DNA from: Candidatus Blautia intestinavium
GTDB taxonomy: Bacteria; Bacillota; Clostridia; Lachnospirales; Lachnospiraceae
NCBI GenBank assembly: GCA_019113745.1
Contig: DXGV01000056.1
Span: 62,001-126,000, forward strand
DNA: 64,000 bases
Reading direction: 5' to 3'
Below are positions 37,326 to 39,921 of the stretch, one piece after another (positions within the stretch are counted from its first letter, which is position 1; each line of letters opens with the position of its first letter). Below the pieces are notes generated by a model, which searched no databases, had not been told where the DNA came from, and worked only from the letters and a program-made list of their open reading frames with translations. The translations under genes and the position numbers were made by a program.

Positions 37326-37370
37326 CATTTGCGCCCGTGTGTCATATTATTTTCGGAGAGGAAGGTTAGC

Positions 37371-38060
37371 ATGAGTATTGAGCTTCTGGGAGAATCTATC
37401 AATGAATTGAGTATTGTATCCATGGCTTTGCGGATTCTCATGTCAATGGTGTGCAGCGGGGTGATTGGTCTGGAAAGAGGAAAAGCCAACCAGCCGGCAG
37501 GTATGCGTACTTATATGCTTGTAAGCCTGGGGGCCTGTATCGTGATGATCACAGGAGACTACGTATTTTATAAATATGGTACAGGAGATCCGGCGCGGCT
37601 GGGCGCTCAGGTGGTGAGCGGGATTGGTTTTCTGGGCGCAGGAAGTATCATGGTGTCCGGAAAATTAAGAATCCGGGGCCTGACAACTGCGGCGGGACTG
37701 TGGACTTCCGCCTGTATCGGGCTTGTCATGGGGATCGGATTTTTTGAATGCGGAGTTATAGCGACTGTAGCGGTTTATATCATTATAGGATATTTTAAGA
37801 AACTGGAAGACAGGATCACCTTTTATGACGGCTGGTTCAGCGTTTATGTCCGCGTGGAAGATCCGTCCTGTTTTGCGGATCTTTATGATGAGGTGAAAAA
37901 AATGGGAATGAAAACAGGAGAAGTACAGCTTCTGGACAAAAAACATGAATGCAAAGAAGCCATAATCTCCGTACGGAACAACTCGCACAGAGACAGAGAT
38001 GAGATTCTCTCCACATTACAGAATATAACCGGCGTATCCAAAGCCAGATACGTATCATGA
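37371..38060 (+). CDS. MgtC/SapB family protein
   Basis: IGLERGKANQPAGMRTYMLVSLGACIVMI, ARLGAQVVSGIGFLGAGSIMV, RGLTTAAGLWTSACIGLVMGIGFFECG; RBS supports ATG 37371. Confidence 0.93.
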   Translation: MSIELLGESINELSIVSMALRILMSMVCSGVIGLERGKANQPAGMRTYMLVSLGACIVMITGDYVFYKYGTGDPARLGAQVVSGIGFLGAGSIMVSGKLRIRGLTTAAGLWTSACIGLVMGIGFFECGVIATVAVYIIIGYFKKLEDRITFYDGWFSVYVRVEDPSCFADLYDEVKKMGMKTGEVQLLDKKHECKEAIISVRNNSHRDRDEILSTLQNITGVSKARYVS

Positions 38061-38276: not shown

Positions 38277-38399
38277 TCAGTCCTTAAGAATCTTATTCAG
38301 CACATACACAAGAATCGTAAGGATGATAATAACCGTAAAAATACTCAGCATCCCTTTCCACATAACTTCCAGGGCCTGCATTACAAGTTCCATATTCAT
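38277..38399 (-). CDS. 40-aa OadG-like small membrane subunit (not in the supplied ORF track)
   Basis: Reverse-strand translation MNMELVMQALEVMWKGMLSIFTVIIILTILVYVLNKILKD*; RBS AGGAAAGGAG 8 nt upstream; immediately downstream of OadB-like gene on the same strand. Confidence 0.82.
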   Translation of the reverse strand: MNMELVMQALEVMWKGMLSIFTVIIILTILVYVLNKILKD

Positions 38400-38466: not shown

Positions 38467-39603
38467 TTACAGAATACTGGATACAACACTTAAGATAACG
38501 CCTCCGGCTACAACAGACGCGATCTGTCCGGAAACGTTGGTACCGGTAGCCTGCATGATCAGAACGTTGCTGGGGTCTTCCTTCAGAGCCATTCTCTGAA
38601 CAACACGGGCCGCCATGGGGAATGCGGAGATACCTGCGGCGCCGATCATCGGGTTTACCTTCTCCTTTGTGAAGAGGTTCAGAAGCTTCGCAAAGAGAAC
38701 GCCTGCGGCAGTATCAAAGATAAAGGCTGCCAGACCGATCACCATGATCAGAAGAGTCTGCGGATTGACAAAGGATTCCGCTCTCATACTGAAGGCTACG
38801 GTAATACCCAGAAGCAGGGAAACCAGATTGGAAAGGATATTCTGCGCCGCATCTGAAAGATTGTTCAGCACGCCGCACTCGCGGAGCAGATTTCCGAACA
38901 TCAGGAATCCGACAAGGGAAACGGACATCGGAGCAACCAGACCAGCTACGAAAGTAACCACGATGGGGAAAATGATCTTTGCTTTCCTGGAAACATTGAC
39001 CGCTTTATATTCCATATGGATGCAGCGCTCTTTTTTTGTTGTGAGCAGGCGGATAACCACCGGCTGGATGATGGGGACGAGCGCCATATAGGAATAGGCA
39101 ACCACGGCGATAGGCCCTACATAGTTCGATCCCAGCACCTGGGAGACAAGAATGGAAGTAGGTCCGTCGGCAGCGCCGATGATACCGATGGAAGCGGCGT
39201 CCTTCAGGTCGAAGCCCAGGAATACGGCAACCAGGATGGCTGCGAAAATACCGAACTGAGCTGCGGCTCCAAACAGGAACAGCTTGGGGTTGGAAAGCAG
39301 CGGGCCGAAATCGATCATGGCTCCGATTCCGATAAACAACAGGATTGGCATTGCCTCAGAAGCTTCGATTCCCACGTCGAAGAGCCACTGAATAATACCG
39401 TTTGTCTCGCCGATCCCTTCCAGCGTCTGGTTCAGAACTCCGGAATCGGGCAGGTTTACAAGGATCGCGCCGAATCCCAGCGGAAGCAGAAGTACCGGCT
39501 CCAGGTCCTTGCTGATGGCAAGCCAGATCAGGACAGCGCCGATGACATACATGACGATCTGCTGAGGTGTGATAGACGTGATGCCTGAAATTAAAAAGTC
39601 CAT
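38467..39603 (-). CDS. sodium ion-translocating decarboxylase beta subunit (OadB/GcdB-like)
   Basis: 378 aa, MPILLFIGIGAMIDFGPLLSNP, IIGAADGPTSILVSQVLG, NPMIGAAGISAFPMAARVVQ conserved OadB segments. Confidence 0.92.
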   Translation of the reverse strand: MDFLISGITSITPQQIVMYVIGAVLIWLAISKDLEPVLLLPLGFGAILVNLPDSGVLNQTLEGIGETNGIIQWLFDVGIEASEAMPILLFIGIGAMIDFGPLLSNPKLFLFGAAAQFGIFAAILVAVFLGFDLKDAASIGIIGAADGPTSILVSQVLGSNYVGPIAVVAYSYMALVPIIQPVVIRLLTTKKERCIHMEYKAVNVSRKAKIIFPIVVTFVAGLVAPMSVSLVGFLMFGNLLRECGVLNNLSDAAQNILSNLVSLLLGITVAFSMRAESFVNPQTLLIMVIGLAAFIFDTAAGVLFAKLLNLFTKEKVNPMIGAAGISAFPMAARVVQRMALKEDPSNVLIMQATGTNVSGQIASVVAGGVILSVVSSIL

Positions 39604-39743: not shown

Positions 39744-39784
39744 AAAAAGACCTGTGTCCCTGCCATGAATGGAACACAGGTCTT
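39744..39784 (-). terminator. riboswitch expression-platform terminator
   Basis: minus strand AAGACCTGTGTTCC-attcatggca-GGGACACAGGTCTTTTT; its 5' arm overlaps the 3' strand of the aptamer P1. Confidence 0.8.
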
Positions 39785-39886
39785 GTCATATACCGGTTGC
39801 TTGAAAGGTATAGATTAAGCCAGAGCTTACACTCATGAATGTTGACCTAATCGCACAAAAACAGTGCTGGCTACTCCCCTATATCA
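39775..39886 (-). ncRNA. yybP-ykoY family (Mn2+) riboswitch aptamer
   Basis: minus strand TATAGGGGAGTAGCC ... GGTCAACATTCATGAG ... GACAAGACCTGTG; P1 TATAGG/CCTGTG pairs; conserved GGGGAGUA, GUCAAyA and CAAGACC blocks. Confidence 0.82.
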
Positions 39887-39892
39887 AAATGT

Positions 39893-39921
39893 ATTTTACA
39901 GCATATACCTTATGTTTTCAA
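39893..39921 (-). promoter_or_regulatory. promoter driving the riboswitch/OadB transcript
   Basis: minus strand TTGAAA - 17 nt - TAAAAT, a few nt upstream of the aptamer. Confidence 0.7.

Follow-up and report, generated by a model that had tools for sequence, protein, structure and literature searches.

The stretch of DNA analysed here (the window, 64,000 nucleotides of a contig of Candidatus Blautia intestinavium) carries on its minus strand a regulatory leader at positions 39744-39921, followed by genes for an OadB-like protein and for a much reduced OadG-like protein (mini-OadG). In minus-strand order the leader reads TTGAAA-17-TAAAAT, then UAUAGGGGAGUAGCC...GGUCAACAUUCAUGAG...GACAAGACCUGUGUUCC, then a hairpin and a U run; the sequence, coordinates, strand and promoter given in a preliminary description, made from sequence alone, all held. 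The features are as follows.

39893..39921, minus strand: sigma-70-type promoter TTGAAA-17-TAAAAT (from sequence and a scan, 10/12 consensus matches).
39772..39886, minus strand: yybP-ykoY (Mn2+) riboswitch aptamer including P1.1, very likely of this class (RF00080, model R1, fold).
39878..39885, minus strand: P1.1 5' strand GAUAUAGG (8 pairs in a row, fold).
39839..39845, minus strand: metal-sensing loop L3, UCAACAU (from sequence, by equivalence to A41 of Lactococcus lactis, UCA41AUUC; PMC6754395).
39773..39780, minus strand: P1.1 3' strand CCUGUGUU, common to the 5' arm of the terminator (folds).
39744..39784, minus strand: intrinsic terminator, a 14-bp stem (39784-39771 / 39760-39747) and U run (fold, sequence).
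38467..39603, minus strand: OadB-like gene, 378 aa, OAD_beta fold, member of a stand-alone clade (PF03977, 504 bits; AF2 model).
38277..38399, minus strand: mini-OadG gene, 40 aa, one predicted transmembrane helix (PF04277, NF040909).

A MgtC/SapB-family gene lies on the plus strand at window positions 37329-38060, convergent to the oadB unit, and an inverted repeat, CCCCGCCGCA...TGCGGCGGGG, separates the two.

The leader had been assigned to the yybP-ykoY class, with a cmscan search against RF00080 proposed as a check, which it passed narrowly. At relaxed thresholds (441 nt searched) RF00080 was the sole meaningful match, covering 39891-39788 with 33.5 bits and E=1.4e-7 (2.0e-7 in a genome search), while at gathering thresholds no match was reported at the window leader, as the Rfam gathering score for this family is 45 bits. 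The MntP and P-type ATPase leaders of the same genome likewise fall under that score, and the RF00080 cut-off is therefore strict for this group. Model R1, a covariance model built from 22 OadB leaders only, scores the window leader 82.6 bits over 39772-39886, its training set containing this leader. The aptamer has the form of a four-way junction with a P4 hairpin; its L1 is GGGAGUAG, and the third base of L3 (the A of UCA, at 39843) corresponds to an invariant adenosine that contacts Mn2+ through its N7 (PMC6754395). L1, the UCA of L3 with its discriminating A, the four-way junction and the competition of the P1.1 switch helix with a terminator are all shared with the L. lactis yybP-ykoY riboswitch (PMC11087558, PMC6754395). 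Significant homology to RF00080 and the L1/L3 core with the discriminating A are thus met, the curated gathering score is not, and the leader departs from known members of the class in this score, in a C.A mismatch in P1.2 and in its oadB-like/mini-oadG target. We regard membership in the yybP-ykoY (Mn2+) class as very likely, the assignment having held in Rfam, structure folding, covariation and genomic context, whereas Mn2+ as the ligand sensed by this particular copy is inferred.

A different ion riboswitch, notably the Na+ class (DUF1646), deserves consideration, as Na+-I riboswitches occasionally control pycB/oxaloacetate decarboxylase genes (PMC9337991) and would, like the window leader, be ion riboswitches upstream of an OadB-family gene. 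Na+-I (DUF1646), however, is another RNA class with another ligand and controls decarboxylase genes proper, L1, L3, P1.1 and P1.2 of the window leader all fit yybP-ykoY, and cmscan at relaxed thresholds found no DUF1646 match but RF00080 instead, all of which leaves this alternative practically no room.

Folding supports a transcriptional ON-switch, as the preliminary description had proposed from the overlap of the terminator with P1. When the RNA is folded up to 39772, leaving out the 3' arm of the terminator, it forms the 8-bp P1.1 (GAUAUAGG/CCUGUGUU) together with P2, P3 and P4, whereas with this arm included a 14-bp terminator with a 10-nt loop takes the P1.1 3' strand. The leader and terminator folds are therefore mutually exclusive, although the competition between P1.1 and the intrinsic terminator is met by folding only. 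The terminator-containing fold has an energy of -46.7 kcal/mol (z -3.9, 0/200 shuffles as good); a terminator scan reported none at the leader because of the 10-nt loop. By itself, the folding energy of the aptamer is not significant (z -1.5), and the case for a riboswitch therefore rests on covariation and homology. The layout is that of the published mechanism in L. lactis, where Mn2+ holds P1.1 and so stops termination (PMC11087558).

Covariation was assessed on 22 OadB leaders, a diverse set in which several are near-identical Blautia copies. Their alignment supports a 20-pair structure with 93.2% of cells paired and two-sided changes at 10 pairs, and its covariation score was reached by 0/500 shuffles, slid controls being 28-41% paired. 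The two-sided changes lie mainly in P2 and P3; P1.1 shows only one-sided changes in this alignment, and co-changes in remoter copies (UAUAGG/CCUGUG, AAAAG/CUUUU, GUAUAGG/CUUAUAC). Helices P1.1, P1.2, P2 and P3 are thus backed by covariation, save for the middle pair of P1.2 in the window, the C.A mismatch (C39870/A39786), which is common to the three closest relatives. Recurrence and covariation in relatives exclude a chance origin of the leader.

The survey of stand-alone OadB relatives that had been suggested earlier covered 89 OadB-like relatives (clade A), made up of 80 named contigs and 9 genomes including that of the window, whose closest named relative is Blautia caecimuris (92% protein identity). 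The leader in B. caecimuris DSM 29492 (L034) closely resembles that of the window. Motif and model together place a yybP-ykoY leader directly upstream of the oadB-like gene in 51 of these 89, in Lachnospiraceae, Oscillospiraceae and Butyricicoccaceae, as opposed to none of 22 loci with a canonical decarboxylase oadB (Fisher p 2.2e-7). No leader was detectable at the other 38 of the 89 clade-A genes, so the role of the protein cannot depend on the riboswitch everywhere. In the phylogeny clade A is fully apart from canonical OadB (SH-aLRT 100), and the leader is scattered over the OadB tree, where its state changes 14 times. The leader very likely controls the oadB-like/mini-oadG unit, with read-through in vivo being inferred.

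The OadB-like protein and mini-OadG resemble the OadBG pair of Salmonella Typhimurium (6iww/6iva) in the beta fold, the Na+-site residues and a gamma-like membrane helix; the AlphaFold model of the former (mean pLDDT 79) matches 6iww, S. Typhimurium OadB, with a Foldseek TM of 0.85. The Na+-binding residues Asp203, Ser382 and Asn412 of OadB (PMC7274780) are retained as D146, S326 and N356, and Na+ coupling is inferred from this retention. The residues for carboxybiotin decarboxylation are likewise retained, and the loss of a decarboxylase role is therefore inferred from missing partners only. Mini-OadG scores under the cut-offs of both PF04277 (20.6 bits, cut-off 27) and NF040909 OadG_rel_small (17.9 bits, cut-off 25); it belongs to or borders the latter, an OadG-related small transporter subunit whose title names no substrate and whose cut-off some relatives pass. 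A mini-OadG gene is kept downstream of most clade-A relatives, encoding 37-52 aa in the copies found, with a single helix and the motif LxIMxKGMxGIF. The protein ends after its helix and is without the C-terminal alpha-binding domain. Genes for an alpha carboxyltransferase or biotin carrier are absent at the window and do not recur near relatives, where a search for conserved neighbours found none recurring but mini-OadG, P-type ATPase and CNNM/CorC genes being sporadic. Among the hallmarks of decarboxylase complexes (OAD/Mmd/Gcd), an OadB-type beta subunit is therefore present, whereas the alpha-binding domain of gamma, the alpha subunit and the biotin carrier are not.

CNNM/CorC-type transporter genes were seen about 1.4-1.7 kb upstream of oadB in six genomes (L056, L057, L062, L086, L094, L095), the one in Kineothrix alysoides (L095) having a degenerate Mn2+ leader in front of it.

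The pair could in principle be a second beta-gamma unit of the cell's biotin-dependent decarboxylase that borrows its alpha subunit and biotin carrier from other loci, Mn2+ serving merely as the switch. The conserved catalytic and Na+ residues would agree with this, and the genome does hold a complete set: inspection by eye identified a separate pump on another contig, with carboxyltransferase, full OadG, biotin carrier, OadB and an OadA-like protein. But that pump already comes with an OadB and a full OadG, the part of gamma that docks alpha is absent from the mini-OadG copies, and clade A stands apart from canonical OadB without a recurring alpha gene nearby, making such borrowing very improbable.

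Further differences from OadBG lie in the OadB-like protein itself. E83, D297, Q360 and M273 are invariant in the 89 relatives and differ from the 22 canonical sequences, where E83 is replaced mostly by S or G, D297 by G in all, Q360 by V in all and M273 by T or A. Q360 lies one helix turn from N356, a residue of the second Na+ site, and D297 mid-way along a long predicted helix. These changes may point to a site for a divalent ion, a possibility inferred from sequence alone.

The genes found under the same leaders indicate which regulon the unit belongs to. Run on 391 Clostridia genomes, R1 gave roughly 140 matches in 120 of them, and 60 loci were fetched, mostly the top-scoring first, with the last batch partly picked for OadB. 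The genes behind them encode MntP (29), P-type cation ATPases (22), CaCA antiporters (5), ABC ATPases (4) and OadB (5), some loci having two; MntP is thus the commonest neighbour. Where the L1 motif was found, the fetched MntP and ATPase leaders have mostly the same L1/L3 core. R1 was trained on the very group of OadB leaders that it supports, whereas this training had no influence on its matches to leaders of MntP and ATPases. Window apart, oadB stands behind only 5 of the roughly 140 matches in the 391-genome sample, and across these genomes clade-A OadB and an R1 leader do not significantly co-occur (42 with both, odds ratio 1.29, p=0.29).

Three R1 matches were found in the genome of the window itself, the leaders of the oadB-like gene, of a P-type cation ATPase and of MntP, the latter two both with GGGAGUAG and UCAACAU as in the window. 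Although OadB-like proteins (PF03977) are unrelated in protein family to MntP (PF02659), the two thus share a riboswitch class within one genome, and in another (G419) a single leader is followed in line by mntP, oadB and mini-oadG. A P-type ATPase gene lies close downstream at two loci (L046 and L091, with a further leader in between in L091) and upstream on the opposite strand at a third (L050). One mark of a Mn2+ exporter, to be under a Mn2+ riboswitch and grouped with known Mn2+ exporters, is shown by the pair through genomic association. The notion that OadB replaces MntP was rejected, MntP being also present in most genomes with clade-A OadB.

Several side observations concern these leaders. 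The own-genome leaders of MntP (L173, C43) and the P-type ATPase (L172, C1) went undetected in the genome search with RF00080, even at E<=1. Four Mn2+-type leaders (L193, L200, L203, L220) precede ABC transporter ATP-binding genes, an unusual target. RF02617 (SSRC10, 'Streptococcus sRNA 10') gives matches under its cut-off that coincide with Mn2+ leaders (L172:2370-2491(-), L173:343-451(+), L042:3838-3950 and L055:3837-3949, as well as L174, L175, L176, L180 and L205), and this family is therefore probably a yybP-ykoY leader plus terminator, not a separate small RNA. RF02514 (5' ureB sRNA, Helicobacter) gives 114 bits at L173:2154-2446 (-), downstream of the own-genome MntP, likely owing to ureB coding similarity.

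It could be argued that the aptamer of this subgroup mainly senses another divalent ion, e.g., Ca2+, which the transporter would export. Strong binding of Ca2+ has been reported for one yybP-ykoY leader, that of Streptococcus mgtA (PMC9495176), and the P-type ATPases and CaCA antiporters associated here can be Ca2+ transporters. Against this stand the presence of the invariant Mn2+-discriminating A and the prevalence of MntP, a Mn2+ efflux family, behind the same leaders, and we hold this reading to be highly improbable.

Another alternative accepts a Mn2+-responsive riboswitch but has the pair move Na+, H+ or carboxylate/bicarbonate and so be of only indirect benefit to cells under Mn2+ stress, e.g., by re-establishing the ion gradients on which other exporters draw. 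It is favoured by the retention of all Na+-site residues, by a fold which is that of Na+-coupled transporters, and by a regulon that already holds two dedicated exporter families. However, the clade-wide invariance of E83, D297 and Q360 suggests an altered cargo, the rest of the main genes under these leaders mostly encode proteins that export metals directly, and the neighbourhood shows no conserved gene for a coupled partner, so that we consider indirect help unlikely.

The reading we prefer is a Mn2+-ON riboswitch driving a stand-alone transporter that is most likely a Mn2+ exporter, to which we assign a probability of about 0.6. At low Mn2+ the P1.1 3' strand would pair into the terminator and transcription would end at about 39744, whereas Mn2+ would dock loops L1 and L3, holding P1.1 and blocking the terminator so that oadB-like and mini-oadG are transcribed. 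Their products would represent the beta-gamma core of a decarboxylase sodium pump minus its enzyme, working as a stand-alone elevator-type (CPA/AT fold) transporter that exports Mn2+, probably in exchange with Na+ or H+, and that joins MntP and the P-type ATPase as third member of the Mn2+-efflux regulon in this cell. The leader class, the mutually exclusive folds, the linkage, the missing enzyme parts and the Na+-site residues are shown by sequence, whereas the Mn2+ cargo, the direction of transport and the coupling ion are inferred. The case for Mn2+ export draws on the shared regulon, the operon link and the changed residues, without transport data, and against it speaks that the genome, with MntP and a P-type ATPase, has no a priori need of a third exporter. 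The preliminary description had inferred a Mn2+- or Na+-linked efflux system, an inference now supported by linkage in many genera and by the shared regulon, but still an inference.

That OadB is not a usual target, as also proposed there, held against a 2022 review of bacterial Mn2+ exporters, which lists MntP, CDF, P-type ATPase, UPF0016 and TerC but not OadB (PMC9334652). No link between OadB and Mn2+ export was found in the open-access literature searched, which did not include the target lists of the original riboswitch papers, and an earlier notice of OAD_beta in those lists remains possible.

The arrangement of riboswitch and OadB recurs in many gut bacteria, alongside known Mn2+ exporters, and Mn2+ riboswitches in this bacterial group are hidden by the Rfam cut-off. 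A bolder reading, for and against which we see the balance as roughly equal, is that the enzyme-free beta branch and its single-helix gamma remnant form a Mn2+ exporter family of gut Clostridia, Mn2+/Na+ or Mn2+/H+ exchangers induced by Mn2+ via yybP-ykoY riboswitches. If the pair does export Mn2+, a new family would be added to the Mn2+ transporters, the widespread clade-A gene pair of OadB and mini-OadG would be given a role, and a chemically driven Na+ pump would have turned into a secondary metal transporter.
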